Source of the DNA: Flavivirga jejuensis
GTDB lineage: Bacteria > Bacteroidota > Bacteroidia > Flavobacteriales > Flavobacteriaceae
Assembly: GCF_030540765.1 (NCBI RefSeq)
Contig: NZ_JAUOEL010000003.1
Span: forward strand, 620,001-684,000
Direction of reading: 5' to 3'
Length of the DNA: 64,000 nucleotides
Each line of letters opens with the position of its first letter. The first letter of the stretch is position 1. Shown one piece after another: positions 4,325 to 28,316 of this stretch. The notes under the pieces are model-generated. The model was not told where the DNA came from and did no database searches. It saw only the letters and a program-made list of their open reading frames with translations. A program made the translations under genes and the position numbers.

Positions 4325-4363
4325 AGTATTGGTTATTTGCAGCGACAAAAACTAATACTTACA

Positions 4364-5551: not shown

Positions 5552-5555
5552 AACA

Positions 5556-5576
5556 TAACATTTACTTAACATAACA
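5556..5576 (+). promoter_or_regulatory. Candidate PhoB-type repeat between porin and Pit genes
   Basis: TAACA at 5556 and 5567 (11 bp), with a third TAACA at 5572. A TATTTG element follows at 5594-5599. The Pit gene may therefore have its own inducible promoter even though it lies just 70 bases after the porin. Confidence 0.45.
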
Positions 5577-5621
5577 CATAGAAACACTTAAGATATTTGT
5601 AAACTTAATTTTAATTAAATT

Positions 5622-7925: not shown

Positions 7926-7946
7926 AAGAACAAATTTTAATATCAT

Positions 7947-7980
7947 TAAAAAAACACCTCTAAATTGAGGTGTTTTTTTG
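7947..7980 (+). terminator. Terminator of the Pit gene
   Basis: AACACCTC pairs perfectly with GAGGTGTT around TAAATT, flanked by an A-run before and seven T after; 27 bases past the stop. Confidence 0.85.
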
Positions 7981-8010
7981 TTTTGTACCTTAGCCATAAA
8001 ACACGCCATT

Positions 8011-8730: not shown

Positions 8731-8833
8731 GAAATAATTTTAGATTCTTCTAGTCGTTACTCCTTGTCTGACCAACAGCTCAATGTCATTGAGTTGAACA
8801 ACGGCAGAGCTTCTTGATAACAGTCACACTTAT

Positions 8834-9280: not shown

Positions 9281-9306
9281 TTTATTTACAATTTATTATA
9301 TAAACA

Positions 9307-9334
9307 AGAAAGCACTCTTTTCAGAGTGCTTTCT
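9307..9334 (-). terminator. Terminator of nrdBA
   Basis: A perfect 12-bp stem (AGAAAGCACTCT with AGAGTGCTTTCT) and 4-base loop lies 28 bases past the nrdA stop; on the minus strand it runs into TTGTTTATA. Confidence 0.8.
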
Positions 9335-9361
9335 ACTTGATAAATATATTAAAATCTATTC

Positions 9362-11851
9362 TTAAGATCCACACATCAAGCAATCATCACCCTGTCCTGC
9401 TTTAGATTGCGCTATGAGCGCTTTCATTTCCTCTGCACTCATAGGCTCGACCTCTGGTGCATTTTGTTTAGCAAATTTAGCCGCATTTTTAGCTGCTACA
9501 CGTTTCTTTTTTGTTTCTTCTTTCAAATCAACTTGATCATCTACTACTTCAACAACTTCTGCTGCTGTAGGCTCTTCTTTTTTGGTTGTTTTTAAAGTAA
9601 ACTTAATAGCATCAACGGCACTCTTTGTACGCAAGTAATACATACCTGTTTTTAAACCGCTTTTCCATGCGTAAAAATGCATGGATGTTAGTTTAGCCAT
9701 CGTAGCTCCTTCTAAGAATAAGTTAAGTGATTGTGACTGATCTATAAAGTAACCTCTTTGACGAGACATATCTATAATATCTTTCATACTTAATTCCCAA
9801 ACTGTTTTATAAAGGTCTTTAATATCTTGAGGAATGATGTCAATATCTTGTACCGAACCATTGGCTCTCATGATATCTTGTTTTAAACTTTCATTCCAAA
9901 GACCAAGATCAACAAGGTCTTCCAATAAATGTTTATTCACAATAATAAACTCCCCAGATAACACACGGCGCGTATATATGTTAGAAGTATAAGGCTCGAA
10001 ACACTCATTATTACCAAGAATTTGAGATGTTGATGCTGTTGGCATAGGTGCTACTAATAACGAGTTACGCACACCATTTTTAAGCACTTGTTTACGTAAT
10101 TTCTCCCAATCCCAGTTACCACTTAATTCTTCGTCTTTTAAATTCCATAAGTTGTGTTGGAACTTCCCTTTGCTTATTGGAGACCCTTCATAGGTTTCGT
10201 AAGGGCCAAACTCTTTTGATTCCTCCATACTTGCAGTAACCGCTGCATAGTAAAGTGTTTCAAAAATATCTTGATTTAATTTTTTAGCAGCATCACTTGT
10301 AAAAGGCATGCGTAATTGAATAAACGTATCGGCTAAACCTTGTACGCCTAATCCAATTGGTCGGTGCTTTAAATTTGAATATTCTGCTTCAACAACAGGA
10401 TAGTAATTCCTATCAATAACTCTGTTTAAGTTTTTAGTAACGCGTTTTGTAATGCGGAATAATTCTTTATGATCAAATTCCCCATTTTTAACAAACATTG
10501 GTAATGCAATAGATGCTAAGTTACATACCGCCACCTCATTTGGAGCTGTATACTCCATAATTTCAGTACATAAATTTGAAGAACGAATGGTTCCTATATT
10601 TTGCTGATTAGATTTACGATTTGCCGCATCTTTATATAGCATATACGGGGTGCCCGTTTCAATTTGAGATTCTAATATTTTTTCCCAAAGTTCACGTGCT
10701 TTAATTGTTTTACGACCTTTACCTTCGGCTTCATATTTTAGGTATAAGGCTTCAAATTCTTCACTATGAGACTCATCCATTCCAGGACATTCATTAGGGC
10801 ACATTAGCGTCCAATCGCCATTTTCTTCAACACGCTTCATAAATAAATCTGAAATCCACATCGCATAAAATAAATCACGTGCACGCATTTCTTCTTTACC
10901 GTGGTTTTTCTTTAAATCTAAGAAATCAAAAATATCGGCATGCCAAGTTTCTAAATAAATAGCGAAACTTCCTTTACGTTTTCCGCCACCTTGATCTACA
11001 TAACGAGCTGTATCATTAAACACACGAAGCATAGGTACAATACCATTACTAGTCCCGTTGGTGCCTGCAATATAACTACCTGTAGCACGAACATTGTGCA
11101 TAGCCAGACCAATACCTCCTGCAGATTGTGAAATTTTGGCTGTTTGTTTTAAAGTGTCATAAATACCATCGATACTATCTTCTTTCATAGTTAAAAGAAA
11201 ACAAGACGACATTTGCGGTTTTGGTGTACCCGCATTAAATAATGTTGGTGTAGCGTGTGTAAAATATTTTTTAGACATGAGTTCGTAAGTCTCAATAGCA
11301 GCATCTAAATCATTTAAATGAATTCCTATTGAAACACGCATAAGCATATGCTGAGGACGTTCTGCAATTTCCCCATTCAATTTTAAAAGGTATGAACGCT
11401 CTAGTGTTTTAAAACCAAAATAATCGTAACCAAAATCGCGGTTATATATAATGGTAGAATCAAGACGTTCTTTATTCGCCATAATTACTTCGTATACATC
11501 GTCTGCTAAAAGTGGCGCGTCTTTACCTGTTCTTGGATTTACATATTTATGTAAATCTTCCATAACATCACTAAAGGTCTTTTTGGTGTTTTTATGTAAG
11601 TTAGAAACCGAAATACGTGCAGCTAACCGTGCATAATCTGGATGTGCTGTCGTCATAGTTGCAGCAATTTCTGCTGCAAGATTATCAAGTTCGCTTGTGG
11701 TAACACCGTCATACAATCCTTCAATAACACGCATGGTTACTTTTAATGGATCTACTAATTCGTTTAATCCATAACATAGTTTTCTCACTCTAGCAGTGAT
11801 TTTGTCGAACATGATTTGCTCTTTTCTTCCGTCTCTTTTTACTACATACAT
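9362..11851 (-). CDS. nrdA: Ribonucleoside-diphosphate reductase, class I large subunit
   Basis: 829 residues. An ATP-cone occupies about 1-90 ([18 protein letters not shown]), the site of allosteric on/off control by dATP. Catalytic residues are readable: Cys in QMSSCFLL (~217), the Asn-Cys-Glu triad in [11 protein letters not shown] (~427-431), the partner Cys in EVAVCNLAS (~444), the Tyr pair in KTGMYYLRT (~735) and the C-terminal CLMCGS redox pair (824, 827) that is re-reduced by thioredoxin or glutaredoxin. It makes deoxynucleotides with NrdB, whose gene is 215 bases upstream on the same strand. The region before CLMCGS is an Ala/Lys/Glu-rich flexible arm, as expected. Confidence 0.97.
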
Positions 11852-16451: not shown

Positions 16452-16627
16452 CTTTATTATTTTTTTGCAAAATTGGGGAATTCAAACATCAATAATTAGT
16501 CAAAATACATCACAAATCAGTCAATTTTGAAATAAATGAGATATTTTGTTAAAAAAACAAGATAAATATGAATCTATATAATAGAACTCATTTAAACTTT
16601 TTTTAGGACAAGACAGTCCCTACCACC

Positions 16628-16752
16628 GCAAATTTTTAACTTGTAACATTAGATTGGCTATCAAGAGTAATAAAAAAGTTTAAAAACATAAAAGATTTAC
16701 TAATTTAGTCACTCACATAACGGAAATATAGTTACCGTGGTAACTATATCCA
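16628..16752 (+). repeat. Cassette-type repeat, second family, copy 1
   Basis: Shares GCAAxTTTTTAACTTG, ATTAGATTG, AAGAGTAATAAAAAAG and GTCACTCACATAACGG with the copy at 19132-19220, in the same order, but has two extra insertions (a short A/T tract and the palindrome at 16726). It lies directly before the first cassette gene. Its end (ATAGTT) joins the cassette-specific inverted repeat at 16753. Confidence 0.65.
16726..16749. other. Perfect palindrome inside the repeat (possible empty cassette)
   Basis: ATATAGTTACC and GGTAACTATAT are an 11-bp perfect inverted repeat separated by two bases. The GTTACC...GGTAAC core equals the flanks of the cassette at 20639-22146 but with no gene between. 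Confidence 0.5.
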
Positions 16753-16777
16753 GTTGTTATAAGCAATCCCAATAAAT

Positions 16778-17260
16778 ATGAAATCGAAAAAAATATTCTT
16801 ATTAATGACAATTGGATTGATGTTGTTAATAGTTCAAAAATCTTATTCTCAAGAATCGAATTGCTACAAAAAATATACTTTTGAAGAGTTCTTAAAACTG
16901 AAGACTAAAAATGATTATGAGTATGTGAGAACCATATACAAAAAACTGATCTATCCTTATTCTGAAAAGGATTTTATTGACGAAGGTGTTGAGGGAATAG
17001 TAAAAGTGATTTTAATAAATAACGGAAAAGATGATTTCGAAATAATACCTGTTGAAAAAGTTAATAATTTTCATAAGGATGTAATTCACGCTATAACATT
17101 AACTAATAATCAATTCTTAAATGAAGATAACGAGAAATATATGACTGAATTCTCGATAAAACTCGATTTTGAACCGCACGAAAAGAGGAATAGAAAAAAC
17201 TATAACGTAATTCATTTGTTTGGTCATAAAACAAAGAGGAAAGAGAAAGTTATGAATTAA
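16778..17260 (+). CDS. Secreted TonB-C-terminal-domain-like protein
   Basis: 160 residues: a signal peptide (1-24, ending KSYSQ) then a domain whose IYPYSEKDFIDEGVEGIVKV, VILINNGKDDFEIIPVEKV and HKDVIHAITLTN follow the TonB C-terminal fold (YP..A...G.EG.V.V.F...). It lacks the membrane anchor and proline-rich linker of a real TonB, so it is a stand-alone secreted copy. Perfect 12-bp inverted repeats flank the gene (16753-16764 and 17267-17278), which marks it as one cassette. Role unknown. Confidence 0.6.
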   Translation: MKSKKIFLLMTIGLMLLIVQKSYSQESNCYKKYTFEEFLKLKTKNDYEYVRTIYKKLIYPYSEKDFIDEGVEGIVKVILINNGKDDFEIIPVEKVNNFHKDVIHAITLTNNQFLNEDNEKYMTEFSIKLDFEPHEKRNRKNYNVIHLFGHKTKRKEKVMN

Positions 17261-17266
17261 AGAAAA

Positions 17267-17458
17267 GCTTATAACAACACCTATGCGATAATGAGAGGTT
17301 TGGGTTTAACCGAAAGGTCATTGTCTATTTGGTTTGTCGCCAAAGATTTAAATTTAGTATTTTAGAAAAGATAAAAACAAAACATAAACTTTCGCTAAGT
17401 GATAGTTCGAAAACCAGTGATTTTCTGCTTCCGCACTACGCATAGCTAAACGTTAGAC
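17267..17458 (+). repeat. Intercassette repeat with imperfect inverted ends
   Basis: Starts with GCTTATAACAAC (complement of the sequence before the gene) and ends AAACGTTAGAC. CCTATGCG near the left end pairs with CGCATAG near the right end with extra unpaired bases, giving a long imperfect palindrome of ~190 bp. The interior is unlike the 125-bp family, so this is a separate repeat type. Confidence 0.5.
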
Positions 17459-17473
17459 ACAAACGAAAATAAT

Positions 17474-17566
17474 ATGGCAAATAGAATCTCAAAAATTCCA
17501 AATAATGTTCAAAATGAAGATTCTATTGCTTGGAAAAAATTATGTGAACTTGTGAACTTACTTTAA
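17474..17566 (+). pseudogene. Truncated gene start (30 codons)
   Basis: ATG begins MANRISKIPNNVQNEDSIAW and continues KKLCELVNLL before a stop. It starts 16 bases after a repeat end, exactly where a cassette gene should begin, but breaks off after 30 codons. It looks like the N terminus of a longer cytoplasmic protein whose remainder was deleted. Confidence 0.4.
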
Positions 17567-17576
17567 AAGCAATAAG

Positions 17577-17944
17577 ATGAGTATTGAAACTGATAAAAAC
17601 GATTTTAAAGCTTTATTAAAAAAATGGAGTTTGTTCGTCTTTCAAGTGGAAAAGCTAACGAAACCCGAGTCTATGATGCTCATTCAAAACTTAGTAGTAA
17701 AATAAAAACATACTACGATGAAAATAATCATAACGTTAAAACTCTTTTTTTTGACTCAAATGAGTCATTAACAATGGAATCCATCCGTGAAAATAATTCT
17801 GATGGAAATTGCATCAAATTATCTATATATCATGCTAAAGATAGAAAATTAGTTAGTCAAACTTTAAACACCTACGATAGTAATGGTAATTTAATCGAAG
17901 ATGAAATATGGAGTCATTTAATTCAACAATTAAATAAATCTTAA
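17577..17944 (+). pseudogene. Frameshifted hypothetical gene
   Basis: An ATG at 17577 opens MSIETDKNDFKALLKKW; at an A7 run (17613-17621) the frame must shift to continue into the 106-residue open frame MEFVRLSSGKANETRVYDAH... that ends at 17944. The second part has TYYDENNHNVKTLFFDSN and TYDSNGNLIEDEIW, reminiscent of YD-type beta repeats. Either the gene is broken at the homopolymer, or translation simply starts at 17624. No function assigned. Confidence 0.4.
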
Positions 17945-17953
17945 AAAACTAAG

Positions 17954-18085
17954 CACAACAACTAACTATTTAGTTATTGCTTGTTCTCGCCTAATTCTGA
18001 AAACCCTTGAGGGTTTTCAGCTTGGTGTGTATTTGTAAAATTAAGTACTAACTCACACAACTACTTATAGCCAAAATCGTTGTAC
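17954..18085 (+). repeat. ~125-bp intercassette repeat, copy 1
   Basis: Shows the order shared by copies at 20518, 22301, 23246, 25179 and 26779: an A/T-rich TTATTGC start, a central hairpin (here an 11-bp perfect stem, 17997-18007 with 18010-18020), TTTGTAAAATTAAGT, then CACACAACTACTTATA and a CGTTG end. The hairpin carries paired changes relative to other copies (ACCC with GGGT). Confidence 0.65.
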
Positions 18086-18109
18086 ATATATAACAATCAA
18101 AGAAAACTA

Positions 18110-18850
18110 ATGAAGTTAAAAAATACTGATATTGAAAATCCTACCCCCTTTTTAATGGAAAAAATTGCCATTTACGCAAAGAAGTTCAAAGACTTTGATC
18201 CTCGAATCATTGAAGGTTGCGCTTTGTGTTATAAGCATAGTCCATTATACCGAAAGCACATAGCCTCATCTAATTTTGGAAAAACCATGGGGTGGCGCTT
18301 AACACATAGCTGGACTCAAAACCCTAAACATTATAGTGACCTTAAGATGATAGGCCCATTAGACTTAGGCTTATTTTCTGTAAGAATCGATGCTATTTTG
18401 GGAAACAACCAGTTAACTGAATTTATAGAACAAGCAAAACAACTACCCATCTTCACTAGCTATATTCATGCTACTCAAAACTTCATTCTTAATCTATTAG
18501 TAAATAAAGATATCCGTTGGTTAAACTTTGAAACTCATCCTTCCTATAAAAATTTTTTAGAGGTATGTAAAAGCTACAGCCCAACTTATAGAGAGATAGC
18601 TAAAAAAGGGAAAGACGATGGCTGGGAGTTAGTAAAAATATGGTCTGATAACCCCGAGAATATCACAGCTCTAAGAGCTATTTTCCCTTTAGATATTGCT
18701 CTTTACTCTGTTCGTTTAGACAGCATTATTCATCATACGGATCTAACAGATTTTTCTCACAAGATAAATACAAATAAGTATGCCTCAATACTACCAATGG
18801 AGGTTATGAGGTTTGTTTCCCAAATTCAAAACGAATGGGGAGTTTCTTAA
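18110..18850 (+). CDS. Cytoplasmic protein with internal duplication, function unknown
   Basis: 246 residues from the ATG at 18110 (an upstream TTG lies inside the repeat). No signal or membrane segment. Two related units are visible: KHSPLYRKH...MGWRLTHSWTQNP...IGPLDLGLFSVRIDAI (about 37-98) and SYSPTYREI...DGWELVKIWSDNP...IFPLDIALYSVRLDSI (about 153-214). The conserved W..NP and PLD.[AG]L[FY]SVR suggest a helical repeat domain. I do not recognise the family. After its stop the same frame stays open for 58 more codons. Confidence 0.55.
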   Translation: MKLKNTDIENPTPFLMEKIAIYAKKFKDFDPRIIEGCALCYKHSPLYRKHIASSNFGKTMGWRLTHSWTQNPKHYSDLKMIGPLDLGLFSVRIDAILGNNQLTEFIEQAKQLPIFTSYIHATQNFILNLLVNKDIRWLNFETHPSYKNFLEVCKSYSPTYREIAKKGKDDGWELVKIWSDNPENITALRAIFPLDIALYSVRLDSIIHHTDLTDFSHKINTNKYASILPMEVMRFVSQIQNEWGVS

Positions 18851-19131
18851 AATCGCTTTATCTATAAAAAAATAGATGCACTCTATTATTTCTTGAATTG
18901 CCAATTAGAACCTCGACAGCTCCAAAAAGGATGGAGCAATCGACATGAATCATTCATCTATCATGTTGGTCTGAATATTATTAGTAATAAATTGAATCGA
19001 AGTCGAAAAAATGTAAAAACAAATTGATTAACATAGGAACTTCTCCATTATTAAAATAATAAAAACGTTTTACAATCAAAATAGATCGGTAACAACTTAA
19101 AAATCCCCTGCTGTTCCCTGGTATATGCTAC
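18851..19131 (+). other. Non-coding stretch holding an in-frame remnant
   Basis: The frame of the preceding gene continues after its TAA to a TGA at 19025-19027, with protein-like content (LNCQLEPRQLQKGWSNRHES, then FIYHVGLNIISNKLNRSRKN). It may be a former C-terminal extension cut off by a nonsense change or a fragment of another gene. The rest, to the repeat at 19132, shows no gene. Confidence 0.3.
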
Positions 19132-19220
19132 GCAAGTTTTTACTTGTGGCGTTAGATTGACAGTTAAGAGTAATAAAAAAGATTTACTAACTTAGTCACT
19201 CACATAACGGAAATATAGTT
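19132..19220 (+). repeat. Cassette-type repeat, second family, copy 2
   Basis: GCAAGTTTTTACTTG forms a small hairpin, followed by GGCGTTAGATTG, AAGAGTAATAAAAAAG, GTCACTCACATAACGG and AAATATAGTT, in common with 16628-16752. It ends at the cassette-specific GTTAGCAAAC (19221-19230). Confidence 0.65.
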
Positions 19221-19293
19221 GTTAGCAAACATTTAAAACAACATTTCGGTAACATAAACAAACATTGCCAGACTTATAGGAAAACATAAATAA

Positions 19294-20349
19294 ATGAAGA
19301 TAATCGTTAGCGTAGTAATTTTATTAATATCAAATCAACTTGCTTTTGGGCAATCGCGAGAAAAAAAAATTGATTCAATTTGTCAGGCTATCCAAAATAA
19401 AAATCCAGAAGTTGCAATTAGTATAGGATTTATAGAAAACAGCAAAGAATATTTCTTTAATTATGGAAAAATCAGTCAGGAGAGTGATTTTAAAGTGGAT
19501 GAAAATACAGTTTATGAAATTGGTTCTATTACAAAATTACTGACTGCTAACTTAATAGTACAAGCACAAGACGAAAGGAAATTGAAAATTGTCGACTTTA
19601 TAGATAACTACTTACCGAAAGAATATATGTTGTCAGAAAAAATAAAAGGTAAACTTAAAATTTCCGATTTAGCTTCTCATCAATCAGGTCTGCCAGATTT
19701 TGATTTTGGTCAACTTATCGAATTAAATCCTAAACAACCTTTAGACATAAGCAAAGAGGCTATTCATTCGATTCTCAACGACAGTACGAAATTATCAGAT
19801 TATGGTAATTATAGATACTCAAATATAAGCTATGTTTTAATGGGCATTATATTAGAAAGTATCTACTCAAAAAGTTTTGACGAATTGGTAAAGGAAAAAA
19901 TACTCGTTCCTTCAAAAATGAAGAATACTTTGACAACGGACTTCAATGTTAAGAACAAAGTTGTTGGACATGATATAAATGGAGTAGAGCAAGATTATTT
20001 TGTTTGGAATTCACTATTTGCACCAGCAGGTTTGCTAAAGTCAAACACATCTGATATGTCGAAATTATTGAAAACACTTTTATCGAATAAAGGCAAAATT
20101 GGAAAAGCAACTTCAGTAACAGAGAAAACCTTCTATAAAAACACCCAAATGGAAATTGGTTTCGGACAGGAAATAGAACGAAACGGAAATGACACTTTCT
20201 TCTATAAAGCAGGCGACACATTTTCCTGTTCCTCAATTTTTGCTTACGACAGGAAATCAAATTGGGGAATAGTGATAATGATAAACCACAAAAATTCCGA
20301 TTTAATAAGAGAGTTGATTAATACGATTTATGAACAAGCATTGAGATAA
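19294..20349 (+). CDS. Serine hydrolase, beta-lactamase class C/PBP-like family
   Basis: 351 residues with a signal peptide (1-19, LAFGQ). All three motifs of the serine-active-site fold are present: SxxK as GSITK (Ser78, Lys81), YxN as YSN in NYRYSNISY (~173), and KAG in FYKAGDTF in place of KTG. The protein is in the EstB/Pab87/AmpC-like group, mostly esterases and D-amino acid peptidases; true AmpC resistance is not implied. It is a single-gene cassette, bounded by GTTAGCAAAC (19221) and its complement GTTTGCTAAC (20355). The ATG is 64 bases after that boundary. Confidence 0.85.
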   Translation: MKIIVSVVILLISNQLAFGQSREKKIDSICQAIQNKNPEVAISIGFIENSKEYFFNYGKISQESDFKVDENTVYEIGSITKLLTANLIVQAQDERKLKIVDFIDNYLPKEYMLSEKIKGKLKISDLASHQSGLPDFDFGQLIELNPKQPLDISKEAIHSILNDSTKLSDYGNYRYSNISYVLMGIILESIYSKSFDELVKEKILVPSKMKNTLTTDFNVKNKVVGHDINGVEQDYFVWNSLFAPAGLLKSNTSDMSKLLKTLLSNKGKIGKATSVTEKTFYKNTQMEIGFGQEIERNGNDTFFYKAGDTFSCSSIFAYDRKSNWGIVIMINHKNSDLIRELINTIYEQALR

Positions 20350-20368
20350 AAAACGTTTGCTAACACCG

Positions 20369-20517
20369 GTGGCTGTTGCACAACTACTTTTTTTGACTGG
20401 ATTAGGTTATTTCTGGCAACTTCAAAAGTAATAAATATTAATAATCAGCAACTTATCAATTGTTTGAAAATTAAAAACACATGATTTCCTAAAAATTTTG
20501 AGTTGCGCAACAGTCAC
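20369..20517 (+). mobile_element. 149-bp MITE-like element, copy 1
   Basis: Terminal inverted repeats of 17 bp, GTGGCTGTTGCACAACT and the complement of AGTTGCGCAACAGTCAC, two mismatches apart, enclose an A/T-rich non-coding interior. A copy of identical length lies at 22152-22300. It interrupts the junction between a cassette end (CTAACACCG) and a 125-bp repeat. No transposase is in the window; the ends recall DDE insertion-sequence termini. Confidence 0.65.
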
Positions 20518-20642
20518 AACGTGTATAATTAATTGCTTTAGCAAGTGCTTATTTGGAAAATTCCTTCGGAATTTTCTCTGGCAAGTTTTTGTTTGCTAAA
20601 TTAGTAGCTTAACCTCGCAACTAACCATACACAAACACGTTA
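20518..20642 (+). repeat. ~125-bp intercassette repeat, copy 2
   Basis: Runs from AACGTGTATAATTAATTGC to CATACACAAACACGTTACC. The two ends are imperfect inverted repeats (ACGTGTAT against ATACAC..ACGT with extra bases). The central hairpin is GAAAATTCC with GGAATTTTC (9 bp). Confidence 0.7.
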
Positions 20643-20660
20643 CCACACATAAAAACTAAC

Positions 20661-22145
20661 ATGAAACTAGAAAAAATAGTCATAGTAATTTTCATCATTG
20701 GACTTATTGGTTGTTCAAAAAAGAATCATGAAATAATAATCACTGGAAAGACTATTGGAAATATTCCAGATAAAATCGAATATACAGTGCCAATTAATGG
20801 AACTTGGTTTTATGGTGCAAAAAAATCAGTTGTTCCAGATTCATTAGGTGATTTTACTATTTCTTTAAAGTCCGACTCAGCTTCGTTTGTAACCTTATTT
20901 GTGCCTAAGCAGACTGCAACAGTCTTGTTAGTTGAACCAGATAAAAAATATGAAATTGATTTCCACTTAAATTCAAAAGAGAATAAAATTAAAGGAGAGA
21001 GCAACGAAGCTCAAACTTTATACAAATCATTTGCTTTTCCAGATTTTCATGTACTTAGTTCTTCCAACGAATTGCTGAAAGATTCGGTTTTTACAACTAT
21101 ATCATCAAAGATAAATACCCTAAAAGAAAAAGAAATATTTCAGTTTAGAGAACAATTAGAAAAGAAGAGCATTACTAAAGCCTTTTATGATTTAGCAGAA
21201 TTGGATAGAAAACACTACTATGCTGCATTGGAAACCTCAATTTCTAAAGTTAAATATAATGGAAATTTTGATAGTTCAGAGACACAAAATGCTCAAATTA
21301 TAAAACTTTGGAAGAAAACATTTCATCAAACTCCACCTACTGAGTCTTTTGATATCCGCTCTCCATGGTCATTTGTTTTGATAAATAACTATATAGAGGT
21401 CAATCAATTCAATTTTGGCACATTAGACCTTGAGGGAATGAAAAAAATCTTCAAACAAAGACAAAATCATTCTTTCAACGTCAAAGAAGCGAAAAAATAT
21501 TTAAAGGGACAGGTTCTAGAATTTTATCTTGCCAACTATATTTTAAGCAATAGTTTTAGGAACAAAGAAAATTCCAAAGAATTAATTGATTTATATGATG
21601 AATTTAAAATAGAATACCCTAATAGCAATTATAGCGAGTACTTAACGTCCTTTATAAAACCTATAATAGACTTTCATAAAAAGATTGAAAAATCTATGAC
21701 TAATGAAAAAATCAAGTTTATCGAAAATTATAAGAATATTGACACTTTCGATGAACTTACAAAGAACTTAAAAGGCAAAAAGGTTTTTATTGATATTTGG
21801 GGGACTTGGTGCGCACCTTGTAAAGAGGAATTTCAACATAAAGACAAGCTCAACAAACTTCTTAAATCTAAAAATATCGAGGTGCTTTATATTTGTGAAG
21901 GTAAAAACAGTAAGGAAAAAGTTTGGAAAGAGATGATAAAATTTTACAATTTAGAAGGGTCTCACATTAGAGCTAATAATAAGCTATTAACTGACATAAT
22001 TAAAAAACTTGAAAGAGTTGGTTCCTTTTACTATCCATATTATATTTTAATTGACGAAAATGGAGAAATTGTAAAAAACCCTGCCAAAAAACCTTCTCAA
22101 TTAAGCGAATTAGAAAAGGAAATAAGTGAAAATTACGTGTGGTAA
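20661..22145 (+). CDS. Lipoprotein with DUF4369-like domain and TlpA thioredoxin domain
   Basis: 494 residues. Lipobox IIGLIGC puts Cys18 as the lipidated residue, followed by SKKN. An N-terminal beta domain (about 25-110, IIITGKTIGNIPDKIEY, GDFTISLKSD) resembles DUF4369, a helical middle follows, and a C-terminal TlpA-like thioredoxin fold has the redox motif WCAPCK (Cys ~384 and ~387) in FIDIWGTWCAPCKEEF. Expected role: periplasm-facing thiol-disulfide exchange. The cassette is bounded by GTTACCACAC (20639-20648) and GTGTGGTAAC (22137-22146), the latter containing the stop codon. Confidence 0.82.
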   Translation: MKLEKIVIVIFIIGLIGCSKKNHEIIITGKTIGNIPDKIEYTVPINGTWFYGAKKSVVPDSLGDFTISLKSDSASFVTLFVPKQTATVLLVEPDKKYEIDFHLNSKENKIKGESNEAQTLYKSFAFPDFHVLSSSNELLKDSVFTTISSKINTLKEKEIFQFREQLEKKSITKAFYDLAELDRKHYYAALETSISKVKYNGNFDSSETQNAQIIKLWKKTFHQTPPTESFDIRSPWSFVLINNYIEVNQFNFGTLDLEGMKKIFKQRQNHSFNVKEAKKYLKGQVLEFYLANYILSNSFRNKENSKELIDLYDEFKIEYPNSNYSEYLTSFIKPIIDFHKKIEKSMTNEKIKFIENYKNIDTFDELTKNLKGKKVFIDIWGTWCAPCKEEFQHKDKLNKLLKSKNIEVLYICEGKNSKEKVWKEMIKFYNLEGSHIRANNKLLTDIIKKLERVGSFYYPYYILIDENGEIVKNPAKKPSQLSELEKEISENYVW

Positions 22146-22151
22146 CCACCG

Positions 22152-22300
22152 GTGGCTGTTGCACAACTACTTTTTTTGACTGAATTAGGTTATTTCTGGG
22201 AACTTCAAAAGCAATAAGTATTGATAATAAGCGACTTAATAATTATTTGAAAATTAAAAACACATGATTTCCTAAAAATTTTGAGTTGTGCAACAGTCAC
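22152..22300 (+). mobile_element. 149-bp MITE-like element, copy 2
   Basis: Same length and the same 17-bp ends as 20369-20517, with scattered base changes inside. It too lies directly between a cassette end (GGTAACCACCG) and a 125-bp repeat. Either this junction is the preferred target, or the element and repeat were copied together. Confidence 0.65.
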
Positions 22301-22430
22301 ATCGTATAAAATTAATTGCTAGCCCTATACTACTTACGAAAATCCTTGCAGGCTTTCTATATGTGATTTATTTGCTAAATTTAATGCTTAATTCACGCAA
22401 CGAAATCATACACAAATACCTTAGCGGTAA
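22301..22430 (+). repeat. ~125-bp intercassette repeat, copy 3
   Basis: ATCGTATAAAATTAATTGC at the left and CATACACAAATACCTTAGC at the right. The central hairpin is degraded: the GAAA/TTTC ends still pair but inner positions do not. Confidence 0.6.
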
Positions 22431-22448
22431 TTAAAAAAGTGAACATAC

Positions 22449-23237
22449 ATGAAACTTGAACTATATCAAATAGATGCATTTACAGATAAAACATTTGGTG
22501 GAAATCCAGCTTGTGTTGTTCCTTTAAAAGACTGGCTACCTGATGAAATAATGTTGAAGATCGCAAAAGAAAATGCAGTCGCTGAAACTGCTTTTTTTGT
22601 AGACAAAGGAGATAAAATACATTTACGGTGGTTTACTCCAGAAATTGAAATGGATCTGTGCGGCCACGCAACTCTTGCAACAACACATTGCTTAAAGTCA
22701 ATTTTAAATTACCCTAATGACAAGATAATATTTGAAACATTAAGTGGTGATTTAACTGTTTTAGTAGAAAATGATTTATACTATTTAGACTTTCCATCGC
22801 GAATGCCTATTGCTTCAGAACTACCTGAAACGATTAAAAAATCTATAAATATACAACCGAAAGAAATTTATAAGTCTAGAGATTATTTATTGGTCTATGA
22901 TACAGAGCAGGAAATCGAAAACATCAAAGTTGACAGACAAACATTTGATAAAATAAATCTTGATCCTGGCGGAGTAATCGTTACAGCAAAAGGAGAAAAT
23001 TGTGATTTTGTGTCGAGGTTTTTCACACCACAAGCATCAATATTAGAAGACCCTGTTACTGGTTCAGCACATTGTTCATTAATTCCCTTTTGGTCATCAA
23101 GACTTGAAAAAAATGAATTAAATGCAATACAAATTTCTGATAGAATTGGAAAATTACATTGCCAAAATAGAAAAGATAGAGTAGTTATAAGTGGAAAAGC
23201 GAAAACATATTCAATAGGAAACTTATGGACAGAATAA
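22449..23237 (+). CDS. PhzF family isomerase/epimerase
   Basis: 262 residues, ATG start. Hallmarks: TFGGNPACVV near 15-24, catalytic Glu46 in NAVAETAFF, DLCGHATLA, and DPVTGSAHCSL in the second half, the pseudo-symmetric diaminopimelate-epimerase-like fold. PhzF itself isomerises a phenazine precursor; most homologues have unknown substrates, and no other phenazine gene is present. Cassette context: a 125-bp repeat lies on either side. Confidence 0.88.
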   Translation: MKLELYQIDAFTDKTFGGNPACVVPLKDWLPDEIMLKIAKENAVAETAFFVDKGDKIHLRWFTPEIEMDLCGHATLATTHCLKSILNYPNDKIIFETLSGDLTVLVENDLYYLDFPSRMPIASELPETIKKSINIQPKEIYKSRDYLLVYDTEQEIENIKVDRQTFDKINLDPGGVIVTAKGENCDFVSRFFTPQASILEDPVTGSAHCSLIPFWSSRLEKNELNAIQISDRIGKLHCQNRKDRVVISGKAKTYSIGNLWTE

Positions 23238-23245
23238 AAACTACC

Positions 23246-23376
23246 ACCAATACAGTAAATAATTTAATGCTAGTTCGAGCCTATTTACAAAACCCTCCGC
23301 CGATTTCTATTCTGTTTTTCTGCTAAATTAAATGCTTAAAACACCCAACAAACCATATACAAACACATTAGCGGTA
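23246..23376 (+). repeat. ~125-bp intercassette repeat, copy 4
   Basis: CACCAATACAGTAAATAATTTAATGC to ACACATTAGCGG. The hairpin is largely lost, but the right half (TGCTAAATTAAATGCTTAAA, CATATACAAACAC) is well kept. An open frame from 23332 runs from this repeat into the next gene, which can mislead start calling. Confidence 0.6.
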
Positions 23377-23790
23377 ATGAACAAAATGACATTCTATCAA
23401 AAAGAAATCAATCGAATTAAAGGAATTTGCTATTCTAATGATAGACAAATTCAAACCGTAATTGGAATGCGAAATTATATTGAGAATAACTTCGACAAAG
23501 AATTGAACTTGGATTTACTCTCGCACATCAGATTTACTTCAAAGTTTCATCTTCTGAGATTGTTCAAAAAATACTATGGACAGACACCAAGACAGTATTT
23601 AATAGACAAAAGGATTACAAAATCAAAAATCTATTTAAGAATGGGAATGTCGGTATCAGAAACTTGTTATTCGGTCGGATTTGAAAGCCCAAGTTCATTC
23701 AGCACACTTTTCAAAAAAAAGATTGGAAAAACACCAACTGATTTTCAAAAAGAGCAATTTTCACAAAGTCAATCTAAAGTTAATTCTTGA
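23377..23790 (+). CDS. AraC-type DNA-binding protein, HTH domain only
   Basis: 137 residues from the ATG at 23377; upstream codons belong to the repeat, and Met4 is an alternative start. It has both helix-turn-helix units of AraC: LNLDLLSHIRFTSKFHLLRLFKKYYGQTP and MSVSETCYSVGFESPSSFSTLFKKKIGKTP (given in parts: first helix DLLSHIRF, second SETCYSVGF). There is no ligand domain, so it may sense nothing itself or act through the VOC protein encoded 32 bases downstream, a pairing seen often in bacteria. Confidence 0.85.
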   Translation: MNKMTFYQKEINRIKGICYSNDRQIQTVIGMRNYIENNFDKELNLDLLSHIRFTSKFHLLRLFKKYYGQTPRQYLIDKRITKSKIYLRMGMSVSETCYSVGFESPSSFSTLFKKKIGKTPTDFQKEQFSQSQSKVNS

Positions 23791-23822
23791 AATTTGGAGT
23801 GTCTAATTAAAAATCAAAAAAG

Positions 23823-24218
23823 ATGAAAATAAAAGTATTAAGTATTCCTGTTCAAGACCAAGAAAAAGCTCTAAAGTTCTATACCGAAACATTGGGGTTT
23901 ATAAAAAAAGTGGATGTTCCGTTAAGCGAAGAAAATAGGTGGTTAACAGTTGTAAACAAGGAGGAACAAGACGGAACCGAAATATTATTAGAACCTTCAC
24001 CCAAACATTTTGAACCTGCCAAAACTTATCAAAAGGCACTTTTTGATGCTGGGATTCCATATACTCAATTTAATGTTGAAAATGTGCAACAAGAATATGG
24101 CAGACTGAATAATCTTGGAGTCGAATTTAGTGTAAGCCCAACAGAAATGGGAACTGTAAAAATTGCTGTCTTCAATGACACTTGCGGAAATAAAATACAA
24201 ATAGTCGAAATGCTATAG
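23823..24218 (+). CDS. VOC (glyoxalase/bleomycin-resistance) family protein
   Basis: 131 residues. The betaalphabetabetabeta modules are clear: MKIKVLSIPVQDQEKALKFY and TETLGF at the N terminus, then a second module with GIPYTQFNVENVQ and CGNKIQIVEML at the end. Candidate metal ligands of the fold are partly replaced, so catalysis (metal-dependent lyase or dioxygenase) is uncertain and binding or sequestration is possible. It forms a two-gene unit with the AraC gene 32 bases upstream, the only clear two-gene cassette here. Confidence 0.82.
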   Translation: MKIKVLSIPVQDQEKALKFYTETLGFIKKVDVPLSEENRWLTVVNKEEQDGTEILLEPSPKHFEPAKTYQKALFDAGIPYTQFNVENVQQEYGRLNNLGVEFSVSPTEMGTVKIAVFNDTCGNKIQIVEML

Positions 24219-24271
24219 GATAAAACACTAGCACCAACAAGATAGCAAACATTTAAGCAACATAAAACTGA

Positions 24272-24709
24272 ATGGGAATATTTGACAAAATATTTGGAAC
24301 AAAAAAGAAAAATGCTGATATCGACTTTAACCAAATTGGGCTGAATTTATCTGAAAATGGGAAGGAATCTATTCGCAAGTTCATAAACAGAACGGACAAG
24401 GAACGAATGGGAGACATTATCCTTTTGGGAGACAAAGGTGACCAGAATTTCTTTTATTTAATTTACTATTCTGTTTTATTTGATTCGGATATAAACGTTC
24501 GCTTTGCAGCCTTAAAAAGAATACCGAATTTTCAAGGTAACCCAAATTTCGAAAAGCTAATTAACAAATTAAAAGAAGCCAATGTTGGAGAAATTTTAGA
24601 ACCGTATTATTCAATGATGTTATTTAGGCTTGGAAAAATATCTGAGACTGAGTTAAATGATAAATTGAACAATGAACAAGAACAAAATGTAAATCAAAAA
24701 AACCATTAA
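24272..24709 (+). CDS. Hypothetical cytoplasmic protein
   Basis: 145 residues, ATG start 53 bases after the VOC gene; the gap holds only a short degenerate boundary (CACTAGCACC, ATAGCAAAC). Sequence starts MGIFDKIFGTKKKNADIDF, a basic leader common in small flavobacterial proteins, followed by a helical segment with SDINVRFAALKRIPNFQGNP, which looks like a HEAT-type helix pair. C terminus is Asn/Gln/Glu-rich. No family recognised. Confidence 0.55.
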   Translation: MGIFDKIFGTKKKNADIDFNQIGLNLSENGKESIRKFINRTDKERMGDIILLGDKGDQNFFYLIYYSVLFDSDINVRFAALKRIPNFQGNPNFEKLINKLKEANVGEILEPYYSMMLFRLGKISETELNDKLNNEQEQNVNQKNH

Positions 24710-24797
24710 AAACACTCGAAGAAGCAAGAATCTTTACACGATAAAACTTCAGTAATAAAGAAGAAACCTTATTAATTTCTGATGGAAATGATTTTTT

Positions 24798-24968
24798 ATG
24801 GAAAATCAGAAAGAAATCAGTTGGAATGAAACATATAATACACCACTTGGAATTCCTATACAACACGTTAACGGAGGTCAACTCTTAATTATTACCATAG
24901 GTTTTTCTCGTTCATATTTTGAAGAAAACAATGAATTCCCAATTACCCCTTCATTAATTGAAAAATGA
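24798..24968 (+). CDS. Small hypothetical protein (56 residues), first of a coupled pair
   Basis: MENQKEISWNETYNTPLGIP begins a 56-residue frame with GGQLLIITIGFSRSYFEEN in the middle. It overlaps the next gene by ATGA at 24965-24968, the classic coupled stop-start. Upstream (24710-24797), another frame also looks coding (LEEARIFTR, EETLLISDGNDFLWK), so this may be the remains of one longer gene broken by frameshifts. Function unknown. Confidence 0.35.
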   Translation: MENQKEISWNETYNTPLGIPIQHVNGGQLLIITIGFSRSYFEENNEFPITPSLIEK

Positions 24969-25135
24969 AATATTATTACTTAAATAACTCGACTGAATTA
25001 GATGATATTTGTTTCTATTCACAAACAAAGATAATTAGTGGAACAACTGTGTTCAAGGAAAAACCTAATTATGACCAAAACTTTATTGAAAAAGGAAAAA
25101 TAGAAATTAAAAGCAAAGTTCGATTTAAAAAATGA
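24965..25135 (+). CDS. Small hypothetical protein (56 residues), second of a coupled pair
   Basis: MKYYYLNNSTELDDICFYSQ begins a 56-residue frame ending KSKVRFKK. Start codon overlaps the previous stop by four bases. Short, soluble, basic at the C terminus. The pairing of two tiny genes in one cassette is reminiscent of toxin-immunity or antitoxin layouts, but no motif supports that. Confidence 0.35.
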   Translation: MKYYYLNNSTELDDICFYSQTKIISGTTVFKEKPNYDQNFIEKGKIEIKSKVRFKK

Positions 25136-25178
25136 AATTACAGATTTAAGAAAGAGAACCGAATAAAAAACCAGTTCT

Positions 25179-25306
25179 CAACACCTTATATAATTTATTG
25201 CTAATTCTAGCCTACTTACGAAAATCCTCGCGGATTTTCTATTCGGTTTTTATTTGCTAAATTACATGCTAAACAACGTAGCAAAGCATATACAAACACA
25301 CTACAG
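25179..25306 (+). repeat. ~125-bp intercassette repeat, copy 5 (best hairpin)
   Basis: CAACACCTTATATAATTTATTGC at the left, hairpin GAAAATCC (25220-25227), loop TCGC, GGATTTTC (25232-25239), then TATTCGGTTTTTATTTGC and CATATACAAACACAC. The T-rich sequence after the hairpin could also make it act as a weak terminator for the upstream cassette. Confidence 0.72.
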
Positions 25307-25340
25307 GTAGTGCTAATACTAGAAAATCATTGAACATAGA

Positions 25341-26765
25341 ATGGATAAAATTGCAGTAATTGGAGGCTTAGGAGCTTTATCTGGAGCTGATTTGTTTTTT
25401 AAACTTCTGAAAAACAAATCAGCTTTAAAAAATCAAAAGCACTATCATTTTATTTTTGAACAACAACCTTTTAGTCAGATTGAATCTGCTTTATTTGAAG
25501 AGCAGGATATAAAATCAAGGAAATTCTACACTTTCACTTTATGCAAAAATTTTGAACAAAAAAATGTGTCTAAAATTTTACTGCCTTGCTTTGCTAGTCA
25601 TTCATTTTTAGAAGAGCTACAAAAGGAAACATCCATTTCCATTGTTAATATTTTTGATGCTATAGCCAACTATCTAAGTTTGAAATTTGATAAAGGAACT
25701 AAAATAGGAGTGCTTACATCTAGTTTTGTGAAAGAATCATTCTTGTTAGAGAAATATTTTCAAGACTATGAATTGATATATCCTACAAATCAAACCCAGT
25801 TAATGCATGCTATATATGATGAATCAGGTATAAAAAATGGATATTTAGACGGTTTACCTTTAGAATATGTGTACGAGGCCTGTATAGAGCTAAAAACAAA
25901 AGGTTGTGAAGTGATTTTACCGTGTATAACTGAAATTTCTCTATTGGTAAATCAGCTTTGGACAAGAGGAATTTCTATTATAGACGTTAATGAGATATAT
26001 GCAGATTATGCACTATCTAAAGAAGATATCCCACAGCCTAAACCTTTTAAACTTGGTATTATTGGAGGAGTTGGACCTTCTGCAACAGTCGATTTTATGA
26101 ATAAAATCATTCAAAATACAACAGCGAAGAAAGACCAGGACCATATAAAAATGATAGTGGAGCAAAACCCTCAAATTCCTGATAGAACAGCCAATTTGAT
26201 TCATAATCAAACAGACCCAACTATTGCGTTATTTTCAACTTGTAAAAAATTAGAAGCCGCTGGTTCAAATGCAATAGCAATACCTTGTAACACAGCGCAT
26301 GCTTTTGTAAAAGAAATACAAGAACACCTTAATGTGCCCATTGTTAATATGATAACAACTACAGCAGAATATATTTTAGAAAATTTTGGAAAGGATACCA
26401 ACGTAGGGCTATTGGCAACAAATGGTTCTATTCAAAGTAAAGTTTATTTTAATGTACTTACGGCTTTTGGACTTCGGGTAGTTATTCCAGATGAAACTCA
26501 TCAAAACTATGTAATGGAAAGCATTTATGGGAAATTTGGTGTAAAAGCGGGTTATACAGATGGGCTTTGCAAAGAACAAATTCTTAATGGAGTTAATCAC
26601 CTTATTAAAAGAGAGGCACAGGTAATTATTTTAGGGTGTACTGAATTACCCCTTCTGTTCCCTAAAAATAAAGAACTTAGAGATAGCAAAAAATCAGTTG
26701 AACTAGTTGACCCTACTTTAATTTTAGCAAAGAAAGTAGTAAATTTAGCTACATCAAACTTATGA
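25341..26765 (+). CDS. Two-domain aspartate/glutamate racemase-like protein
   Basis: 474 residues, about twice the usual racemase. The C-terminal domain (about 237-474) is canonical: FKLGIIGGVGPSATVDF, IPCNTAHAF (Cys ~316) and LGCTELPLL (Cys ~433), the two catalytic cysteines of this fold. The N-terminal domain (1-230) has the same plan, MDKIAVIGGLGALSGADLFF, LPCFASHS (Cys83) and LPCITEIS (Cys ~195), with both cysteines kept but the Asn-Thr of the first motif changed. It may be a fused heterodimer or a regulator-enzyme fusion. Substrate unknown. Single gene between two 125-bp repeats. Confidence 0.82.
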   Translation: MDKIAVIGGLGALSGADLFFKLLKNKSALKNQKHYHFIFEQQPFSQIESALFEEQDIKSRKFYTFTLCKNFEQKNVSKILLPCFASHSFLEELQKETSISIVNIFDAIANYLSLKFDKGTKIGVLTSSFVKESFLLEKYFQDYELIYPTNQTQLMHAIYDESGIKNGYLDGLPLEYVYEACIELKTKGCEVILPCITEISLLVNQLWTRGISIIDVNEIYADYALSKEDIPQPKPFKLGIIGGVGPSATVDFMNKIIQNTTAKKDQDHIKMIVEQNPQIPDRTANLIHNQTDPTIALFSTCKKLEAAGSNAIAIPCNTAHAFVKEIQEHLNVPIVNMITTTAEYILENFGKDTNVGLLATNGSIQSKVYFNVLTAFGLRVVIPDETHQNYVMESIYGKFGVKAGYTDGLCKEQILNGVNHLIKREAQVIILGCTELPLLFPKNKELRDSKKSVELVDPTLILAKKVVNLATSNL

Positions 26766-26778
26766 AAACACGACCTCT

Positions 26779-26904
26779 AAGACGTATATAATTTATTGCT
26801 AATTCCAGCCTACTTACGAAAATCCTTGTGGATTTTCTATTCGGTTTGTATTTACTAAATTAGGTGCTTAAAACACCCAACAAACCATATAAAATCACGT
26901 TACC
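26779..26904 (+). repeat. ~125-bp intercassette repeat, copy 6
   Basis: Runs GACGTATATAATTTATTGC to AAATCACGTTACC. Hairpin GAAAATCC (26818-26825), loop TTGT, GGATTTTC (26830-26837). Closest in sequence to copy 5. Confidence 0.72.
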
Positions 26905-26924
26905 AGCAATTCAGAATAACATAA

Positions 26925-27264
26925 ATGAAAGAAGAAATTGAGAGAATAAAGGACAAACTAAACCGACTGAAAAAGTTGGATAGGAATTTTGACGCTTTTG
27001 GCTCTCAACGTCATAAATACAAGTTAAATAGAACCAAATTCGAAGAAGAATTAATTGATTTTGAAAAAGCACACTCAATATCATTACCTGAAGAATATCG
27101 AGAATTCTTAAAAAATATCGGAAATGGGGGCGCAGGACCTTATTATGGACTCGAACCTATAGAAAATGGAAGATTTACTGATTTAGATTATAAAAGAGAA
27201 GAGGATTTAATTTCTGGATTGGTATGAATCATGGCTAGACAAGGAATTAAAAGAAAAAAGCTAG
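26925..27264 (+). pseudogene. SMI1/KNR4-like protein with internal deletion
   Basis: The first 100 codons give an SMI1/KNR4 N terminus (ISLPEEYREFLKNIGNGGAG, GPYYGLEPIENG) and stop early. In another frame just before and beyond that stop is DWYESWLDKELKEKS with a stop at 27262-27264, the usual C terminus of this family. The central ~70-100 residues are missing, so two ends have been joined out of frame. Intact members often act as immunity proteins of contact-dependent toxins. Boundaries GTTACCAGC (26899) and GCTAGTAAC (27260-27268) are an inverted repeat with one mismatch. Confidence 0.7.
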
Positions 27265-27300
27265 TAACAATAGCATAAAAAACACCAGAATACAAATTGA

Positions 27301-27843
27301 ATGATAGAAAAGAAAAATATAATTGGAATTTGTGGAAGTGCTAGTCGAAATTCTGCAAATCTATCAATTCTCAAGTGGATAGCTAAATCGGAAAAATCAG
27401 ATTTCAATTTGGAGATTATAGATAATTTGACCGAATTACCGCATTTTAAAACAGAACTGACTGATAAAAATACACCTAAACAAATTGTTGACTTTAGGAA
27501 TAAGATTGCAAATTCAGACGGAATTATCATTTGTACACCAGAATATGTTTTCAGTATTCCGAGTGGTTTAAAAAACATGATTGAATGGTGTGTATCGACA
27601 TCTGTTTTCTCTAACAAACCAATTGGATTTATAACTGCTTCGGCAAGTGGAGAAAAAGCACACGAGGAACTGAAATTGATTATGAAAACTATCCAAACTA
27701 AATTTACAGAGGAAACAATTCTTTTAATTAAAGGAGTAAAAGGGAAAGTTGGTAAAAACGGAAAAATATTAGACAAGAAAACAGAAACAGAGTTGAACAT
27801 ATTCGTTGAGTCCTTTGAAAAGTGGGTGGAAAAACCATCATAA
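27301..27843 (+). CDS. NADPH-dependent FMN reductase family protein
   Basis: 180 residues, ATG start. Flavodoxin-like fold: IIGICGSASRNSANLSIL is the phosphate-binding loop, and IIICTPEYVFSIPSGLKNMIEW is the FMN/active-site motif (usual form PEYN.S.P..LKN). Likely a soluble flavin or quinone/chromate-type reductase; electron acceptor unknown. No 125-bp repeat follows it; after its stop there is AACAACGATATAAAGC, possibly the beginning of an eroded boundary. Confidence 0.85.
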   Translation: MIEKKNIIGICGSASRNSANLSILKWIAKSEKSDFNLEIIDNLTELPHFKTELTDKNTPKQIVDFRNKIANSDGIIICTPEYVFSIPSGLKNMIEWCVSTSVFSNKPIGFITASASGEKAHEELKLIMKTIQTKFTEETILLIKGVKGKVGKNGKILDKKTETELNIFVESFEKWVEKPS

Positions 27844-27943
27844 CAACGATATAAAGCATAGTTAGTAAGAGCTAAATGAAAGGTAAGTGCTTTTACTGCG
27901 AAGTAACCCGACACAAGCTTAACACTTAAAGAAAAACAGGACA

Positions 27944-28316
27944 TTGATTTTATGGCTAAATGTGCTTAACGCAATAATTTGGTTTGCTATTTTTTATAGT
28001 TTGAAAGTTTTAAGTCCCGCAGTATTCGCATGTTTGTTTCTAAGAGCTATTCCAATTAACCTGTTTATTTTTGAATTAAGAAAGTCAAAAGCTAGTAATA
28101 AAAGTAATTTTACTACTGCCACACTTTTTATTGACAATGCTCGTTTTAATGTTGTTACTAGTGCCTTAGGACATGAGTAAAGCTAATTCCTTTCAAATAT
28201 TGAAATATAGTGCTATAATAACGGTTATAGGAGGTGTTGTTGCAGCATTTATTATGAAGAAAACATCTAAGGAGTTAGCGATTAAAAACCCGATAGTGCA
28301 GATTTGTAATCTATAA
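27944..28316 (+). pseudogene. Eroded membrane transporter (EamA-like) remnant
   Basis: A frame opening at a TTG (27944) gives about two transmembrane helices (WLNVLNAIIWFAIFYSLKVL, SPAVFACLFLRAIPINLFIF), typical of the first half of an EamA/DMT module. After its stop a second frame continues (NSFQILKYSAIITVIGGVVA, then AFIMKKTSKELAI). No frame is long enough for a transporter (~290 residues), so this is a deleted and frameshifted remnant. Family naming is tentative. Confidence 0.45.

Follow-up and report, generated by a model that had tools for sequence, protein, structure and literature searches.

A cassette array without a recombinase in Flavivirga jejuensis: a likely remnant of an integron-like gene-capture system of Bacteroidia

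Integrons hold single-gene units in one orientation. Their attC sites have complementary R'' and R' boxes, a G^TT point and a hairpin of the bottom strand, and attI lies beside the gene of the integrase IntI. In integrons of the Treponema denticola type, intI is oriented like the cassettes. Arrays of such sites without the integrase are termed clusters of attC sites lacking integron-integrases (CALIN). Here we describe an array of attC-like sites and mostly single-gene units in Flavivirga jejuensis (Flavobacteriaceae, Bacteroidota). It is located in a 64,000-nucleotide stretch (positions 620,001-684,000 of contig NZ_JAUOEL010000003.1; hereafter the window) of a 6.02-Mb genome comprising 33 contigs, with completeness of 99.99%. 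The array is very probably a recombinase-less, CALIN-like remnant of an integron-like gene-capture system of Bacteroidia run by a XerA-like recombinase.

Of the systems already known, recombinase-associated acquired interbacterial defence (rAID) is the closest. It is portrayed as a system of Bacteroidales for immunity genes, in which short genes of one orientation and conserved motifs between them accompany a predicted tyrosine recombinase; its source (PMC12247911) uses none of the words integron, attC and cassette in the main text. Spread of tet(X3) is ascribed to ISCR2 in the pertinent passages of PMC7722449. As to integrons of the phylum, the passages on Bacteroidetes in the IntegronFinder 2.0 paper refer to an earlier survey by its authors with integrase-only elements (In0) only, and add one complete Bacteroidetes integron, in Salinibacter (PMC9024848). 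Bacteroidota are named among integron carriers, without detail in the passages concerned, in PMC8618304 and PMC2426708. Among the papers listed by our literature search, which mostly did not extend to subscription papers such as the original rAID one, none was seen to describe the present system beyond rAID or to treat such arrays as integrons.

Organization of the array in the window

The array extends over approximately 16.58-27.27 kb of the window on the plus strand, its gene units being split by attC-like sites. A sequence-only reading had placed it at 16500-27270, which matches. It had also described all genes there as plus-strand, and 11 of the 12 accepted open reading frames (ORFs) of at least 90 aa starting in this interval are indeed of that orientation; the sole minus-strand call (27261-27944) overlaps a plus-strand flavin mononucleotide (FMN) reductase gene (27301-27843). 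Its description of both flanks as mixed applies to the left one (++-+++----++-), but the right flank is plus up to 32.8 kb and mixed only beyond. The six related repeats of ~125 bp were recovered (near 17946, 20524, 22285, 23249, 25167 and 26765), as were two further repeat types with two copies each: a second type (16631-16733, 19134-19220) and a 174-nt element (20364, 22147). The latter is a miniature inverted-repeat transposable element (MITE) inserted in two of the six ~125-bp copies. Most units carry a single gene, exceptions being the two-gene AraC plus glyoxalase unit and the degenerate stretch 24241-25180. Pfam matches identify beta-lactamase-family, redoxin, PhzF, AraC plus glyoxalase, Asp/Glu racemase and short SUKH-1 cargo, and the other units are hypothetical. 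Features of the array, in window coordinates, are as follows.

16631..16755, plus strand: attC-like site of the second type, copy 1 (repeats D6/D7; sequence); at 16731-16755, a possible mini-cassette without a gene: GTTACC-GT-GGTAAC, then a short spacer up to the next boundary
16756..17275, plus strand: cassette 1, hypothetical protein (16778-17260); start GTTATAAGC, end GCTTATAAC
17271..17450, plus strand: attC-like site of a third, longer type with CTATGCG...CGCATAG arms, recognised by eye; resembles long intergenic sites of locus L094
17451..17945, plus strand: unit 2, ORF 17624-17944, ends poorly kept; complementarity weak and uncounted
17946..18080, plus strand: attC-like site of the ~125-bp type, copy 1 (repeat; covariance model hit C23:637960)
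18081..19133, plus strand: unit 3, ORF 18110-18850 without Pfam match, candidate end (ORF calls; Pfam)
19134..19220, plus strand: attC-like site of the second type, copy 2 (repeats D6/D7)
19221..20364, plus strand: cassette 4, beta-lactamase-family (PF00144) protein 19294-20349 (Pfam); start GTTAGCAAAC-A, end C-GTTTGCTAAC, an exact box with A/C mispair
20365..20638, plus strand: attC-like site of the ~125-bp type, copy 2, with MITE inserted at ~20371-20520 (repeats)
20639..22146, plus strand: cassette 5, redoxin/thioredoxin-like protein 20661-22145 (Pfam); start GTTACCACAC-A, end C-GTGTGGTAAC, an exact box with A/C mispair
22147..22419, plus strand: attC-like site of the ~125-bp type, copy 3, with MITE at ~22154-22303 (repeats); a related unit of genome G005 (L130, 74% identical) has no MITE at this position
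22420..23245, plus strand: cassette 6, PhzF-family protein 22449-23237 (Pfam), boxes decayed; related gene in genome G003 78% identical
23246..23366, plus strand: attC-like site of the ~125-bp type, copy 4 (repeat, model hit)
23367..24241, plus strand: cassette 7, AraC-type regulator (ORF 23332-23790, first ATG upstream of the boundary) and glyoxalase (23823-24218) (Pfam), cognate box weak; 97.8% identity to G005:C27 (L129)
24241..25180, plus strand: unit 8, degenerate, ORF 24272-24709 (ORF call), complementary end not seen
25181..25298, plus strand: attC-like site of the ~125-bp type, copy 5 (repeat, model hit)
25299..26778, plus strand: cassette 9, Asp/Glu racemase family protein 25341-26765; 95.6% identity, including the attC-like site, to G005:C143 (L128)
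26779..26898, plus strand: attC-like site of the ~125-bp type, copy 6 (repeat, model hit, G005 homology)
26899..27271, plus strand: cassette 10, short SMI1/KNR4 (SUKH-1) protein 26925-27227 (PF09346, 31.5 bits), right end of the array; ends GTTACCAGC / GCTAGTAAC with one mismatch

Four units (16756/17275, 19221/20364, 20639/22146 and 26899/27271) are flanked by short inverted repeats that are exact or nearly so, as had been noticed from the sequence, and three more are flanked by weaker ones. For these seven units with definable ends, the end windows of which were chosen by eye, complementarity of cognate starts and ends sums to 61 versus a permutation mean of 48.7, a score reached by two of 5040 permutations, the cognate one included. 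The cognate end is the best partner for five of the seven starts, tied for one and beaten for one (23367). An exact box with A/C mispair, the rule found in relatives (see below), occurs twice in the whole window, at 19221/20355 and 20639/22137. Taken by themselves, the six repeats give a weak consensus fold (-3.5 kcal/mol, covariation term +0.7), and one of the four copies folded individually was no better than shuffles.

A covariance model built from the six copies gave 22 matches genome-wide at E<=1, 19 of them below 1e-6, the six training copies included. The next downstream ORF is on the same strand in 21 of the 22; repeats without link to units, which the sequence-only reading had named as speaking against it, are thus not what is seen. 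Among the 21 matches having an upstream ORF, that ORF is same-strand in 18; an ORF call overlaps one match. A pattern for one attC type, searched across the genome, found two matches, equal to its control.

No integrase lies beside the array, as stated from the sequence, and a recombinase was found adjoining arrays in relatives instead. In the host genome, TIGR02249 (IntI) gives 29 matches, none above cut-off, and the array-type recombinase is represented by broken pieces, without an intact copy. The longest remnant (L018) is missing its N-terminal part and carries AGLC instead of the AGLR of the family; C-terminal pieces are carried by contigs C29, C31 and C1. On C29, six recombinase 3' ends each close in an attI-like G^TT before different sequence. 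Because the pieces are broken, the window array is probably frozen, unless it is served by a recombinase in trans.

The six copies on C29 (L017 3496-17943; C29:215.5-229.9 kb) span ~530 bp including attI, and their left 300 nt are 73-99% alike ungapped. The same locus harbours three short 58-bp attC-like repeats (L017 13986, 14408 and 15037). MITE ends read GGCTGTTGCACAACT; copies are present at window 20371-20520 and 22154-22303 and in L134, L135, L137, L139, L020, L023 and L017. By eye, seven of the 11 ends inspected stand directly behind an R''-like AAC box and two more beside an L'' arm, a placement that looks as if attC-like sites were the target of this element.

Recombinase-adjacent arrays in relatives

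A search with the remnant fragment at 1e-10 found matches in 80 of 99 relatives, including weak matches to ORFs of ~300 aa, probably Xer. Twenty recombinase places were fetched, of which 19 were long enough for the box test. The recombinase (370-400 aa) is encoded 5' of the arrays in their orientation, and in most fetched loci small, mainly co-oriented ORFs follow on its strand. Intergenic gaps, read in three loci, revealed that units open with GTT-N7-A and close with C-N7'-AAC. In full, the box sets GTT-N7-A-NNN against NNN-C-N7'-AAC, with A and C forming a constant mispair. This rule was derived on loci L078-L097, the A/C position being read off the output of an earlier scan (11 nt, one mismatch); that scan itself gave a weak excess in relatives, and the signal is decisive only with exact 10-nt boxes plus A/C.

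Downstream of the recombinase in the 19 loci (144.8 kb), 91 exact 10-nt pairs were found versus 18.3 expected from shuffles, and 70 of them carry A/C (0.94 expected). Upstream (138.5 kb) there are 13 pairs (15.3 expected), one with A/C (0.88 expected). At least one exact A/C unit is present in 17 of the 19 loci. A second set comprised 80 named loci, which may share species with the first set and of which segments longer than 600 nt were used; here A/C is found in 58 of 88 pairs downstream (1.2 expected) and in one of 52 upstream (1.3 expected). Judged by record title, 21 of the 31 Bacteroidota loci having at least 1 kb downstream contain an exact A/C unit. Fourteen Bacteroidota loci and three others were too short for the test; of these short loci, L164, a contig titled only 'bacterium', has one A/C pair. 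The system, assigned from the sequence to Flavobacteriaceae, is thus present there but extends to other Bacteroidota.

Because a start may belong to more than one pair, units were counted by distinct start, which gave 124 over both sets together. The three pairs past the mispair, which were unused in unit selection, hold in 122, 121 and 104 units, and the next two positions pair in 27 and 11. The box therefore spans 14 positions, of which one is the constant mispair. An A/C on the top strand equals T/G on the bottom strand, where wobble pairing is possible. GTTRRRY fits 12 of the 124 units, GTT itself being demanded by the search. The earlier remark that RRRY is not kept was therefore right: its place is taken by GTT-N7 and, at position 11, the constant mispair of A with C.

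In 32 of 97 scanned loci, no more than 300 nt separate the recombinase end from the start of the first exact A/C unit (median 77.5 nt), many of the remaining loci being short contigs or from outside Bacteroidota. Position of attI is delimited by L086 and L089, from two species of the window's genus. They share 6.86 kb at 88% identity, a stretch that covers the recombinase gene and lies beside genes for aspartate-semialdehyde dehydrogenase and prolyl oligopeptidase. Its final 70 nt, GTT included, show a single base difference, and colinear homology breaks off right after them. Past the break, a gene of ~550 nt (79%) and attC-like repeats have counterparts, but not at corresponding positions. 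At the corresponding chromosomal site of the host genome, the flanking genes are present and recombinase and array are absent. Folding of attI itself was dropped as a candidate feature, the mean z being just -1.0 over 32 loci.

Site length, from box to next G, was 49-65 nt (6), 121-131 nt (37) or 185-210 nt (13) in the 56 units with a defined next boundary. When each site was joined to its own unit start, the bottom strand gave the more stable fold of the two strands for all 56 (mean z -4.9; z < -2 in 55); since sites within one array are homologous, independent cases are fewer than 56, and the result concerns folding, not strand use. Joining the site to the following unit's start made the fold less stable in 55 of 56. 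As the boxes pair by selection, cores were also folded alone; with boxes removed, the bottom strand was still better in 53 of 56 (mean z -3.4).

Whole units recur elsewhere. Window 25289-26889, the racemase gene with its site, matches G005:C143 with edges at most 10 nt from both boxes, although attC-like ends resemble each other in any case. Window 23368-24241 matches G005:C27 from R' to just past R''. Both matches are in another species, with flanks different from those of the window; units that never recur between repeats, the other outcome held to speak against the sequence-only reading, are thus not what is seen. The AraC/glyoxalase unit ends just after R'' in three contexts (window 23367-24241, L129 and L133 4720-4812), after which the sequences differ, and this shared end suggests exchange of the site body.

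In the proposed mechanism, each unit would start at G^TT and end in its own attC-like site. On circularisation, the start would base-pair with the end to form an extended hairpin, which the bottom strand would adopt more readily. The XerA-like recombinase would excise circles by recombining attC-like sites and insert them at attI just 3' of its own gene. We infer that recombination is carried out by this recombinase, through single-strand recombination of the bottom strand.

A small DUF2116-like protein with a treble clef is encoded divergently from the recombinase, ~320-1080 nt upstream on the opposite strand (e.g. L086 5459-5824), in seven of the 20 fetched loci, in 12 of the 44 named loci from Bacteroidota and in none of 31 others. 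It is a possible partner of the recombinase.

The recombinase and known systems

The array recombinase consists of ~95 N-terminal residues followed by Phage_int_SAM_4 and Phage_integrase domains. NF040815 (XerA) is the best library family for eight full-length proteins (189-230 bits, one above the cut-off of 220). TIGR02249 comes second, aligning in two stretches with 181-211 bits; in none of the ten recombinase proteins analysed does it reach its cut-off of 265 bits. The best solved structure by sequence is XerA 5hxy. An AlphaFold2 model (predicted local distance difference test, pLDDT, 81.8; predicted template modelling score, pTM, 0.53) has XerA and integron-integrase structures as top matches. 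Xer proteins act at chromosome dimer sites and, to our knowledge, Xer recombinases do not serve cassette arrays; the array recombinase differs from them by its extra N-terminal part.

A spacer of 64 residues separates patch III from box II in all 13 recombinases of set A3, versus 106 in 11 of 12 IntI loci, the 12th giving no sequence. The protein is hence 42 residues shorter there and is without the IntI-specific additional domain. In a tree the bootstrap of which had not settled, 13 IntI form one clade (100/100) and the 13 A3 recombinases lie beyond a weaker, deep branch (80/95). Bacteroidia recombinases are intermixed with proteobacterial ones that show no arrays, and those from genomes of the window's family fall among named Flavobacteriaceae.

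The system works like an integron, sharing with it the features named at the outset, and is not an IntI integron. We do not class it as such because three hallmarks were checked and are absent, namely the integrase domain, a place in the clade and the attC consensus: the recombinase has the shorter spacing, ~95 extra N-terminal residues and a place outside the IntI clade, and the box GTT-N7-A-NNN stands where integrons have RYYYAAC...GTTRRRY. The window array resembles a CALIN in that its attC-like sites lie in a genome in which no more than fragments of this recombinase family were found, and differs from one in that its sites go with a non-IntI family. Of the two options offered from the sequence, a CALIN-like array or a separate mobilisation system, both are supported, there being no recombinase here and a non-IntI recombinase in relatives.

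Likeness to rAID concerns the recombinase 5' of a co-oriented array, as seen in the window's relatives and not beside the window array itself, an intergenic motif with the same box logic, and the SUKH-1 family gene of the last window cassette. Locus L145 of Bacteroides ovatus, which we take for a rAID array by its immunity-gene content, obeys the start/end rule (79 of 90 versus a permutation mean of 62.1; none of 100000 permutations), though its motif sequence differs. Its recombinase is 40% identical to that of L091. This rAID-type immunity array (L145 9060-17062) has attC-like sites of ~50 bp and A^TTA boundaries instead of G^TT. Sites of the window type are longer, with G^TT, and come from another host group. 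Of about ten window units, one (SUKH-1) fits orphan immunity, and most cargo has other functions.

The tpnF product is an N-terminally short member of the recombinase family, 53.6% identical to L091 over 62% of it, with the 64-residue spacing. The tpnF gene is found upstream of tet(X3) in the Acinetobacter indicus plasmid p80-1-2-tetX3 (L142 8052-10110) and in L147. In this ISCR2-linked arrangement tet(X3) occupies the attI position, where a first cassette would be, but its unit boxes are imperfect, with three of ten positions mismatched by eye.

Alternative explanations and meaning

Several observations weigh against an integron-like origin of the array. Recombination itself was not observed. 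In the window, the exact A/C box is kept in just two of about ten units, and the array was not enriched in an unguided scan that allowed one mismatch in 11 nt (9 versus 8.1 in shuffles), the control stretch 1-11000 giving 16 versus 7.1. Exact A/C units are absent from two of the 19 first-set loci, from ten of the 31 testable named Bacteroidota loci and from all 32 testable loci outside Bacteroidota. Since related recombinases there show no arrays, the protein family alone is no proof of cassettes. The first unit of L089 has no exact partner, and the ending of the AraC/glyoxalase unit right behind R'' is unexplained by simple cassette excision. Finally, the additional domain which the recombinase, by its sequence, does not have is called defining and necessary for recombination in the passages on IntI of an archaeal integron paper (PMC9668308).

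Could these be ordinary attC sites moved by an IntI from another replicon or since lost, and the array thus a genuine CALIN of integron origin? Integrons do have the same logic in their units, the orientation of these, the folded site and the G^TT point, and TIGR02249 does match the eight full-length recombinases in two stretches. Yet none of the 29 matches in the host genome passes the cut-off, arrays of relatives adjoin a non-IntI recombinase and GTTRRRY is found in so few units. Across 296 genomes of the phylum, 84 exceed the TIGR02249 cut-off, and among 85 genomes matching at 1e-60 one belongs to the window's class and none to its family. We regard such an origin as quite unlikely. A phage or integrative and conjugative element (ICE) type of island, in which larger elements are integrated by the recombinase and one site takes up unrelated elements again and again, so enlarging the array, is very unlikely. 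Phage records, 53 of them, do contain relatives of the recombinase, although no match extends over 80% of it (33-42% identity among the 15 matches listed), and several fetched loci end at contig ends, as repeats would cause. However, units have their own boxes and sites and mostly one ORF, and in the two loci with annotation, L144 and L145, the cargo genes are small and none is for phage or transfer functions, an insertion sequence (IS) element lying downstream in L144.

Scarcely any credence is due to passive repeats, be they RNA elements, terminators or repetitive extragenic palindromic (REP)-like MITEs, that amassed between co-oriented acquired genes and merely resemble attC. The 174-nt element is indeed a MITE, strong hairpins could be terminators and some model matches stand alone. 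But unit-specific complementarity of start and end is impossible from spread of one repeat, and pairing persists past the selected positions. Equal pairing of cognate and non-cognate ends was tested for and not found, homology breaks exactly at attI and whole units recur.

On balance, though with clearly less assurance than for the array itself, we favour the view that Bacteroidia have their own kind of integron, with a XerA-like recombinase without the IntI domain and a 14-nt box in which the A/C mispair marks the strand; rAID would be a specialised branch of it and tet(X3) an escaped cassette. If so, integron function would have arisen repeatedly, or would predate the IntI domain.

Surveys of integrons are built on IntI and the attC model. 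If the arrays are active, a large gene-capture system has been overlooked in an abundant phylum, and the additional domain of IntI is not required for cassette capture. In that case rAID would gain a mechanism, and the source of tet(X) units would become testable. The fixed A/C mispair is a simple handle for cassette finding and for tests of strand choice. The system may be a second major route by which bacteria gather and trade genes.

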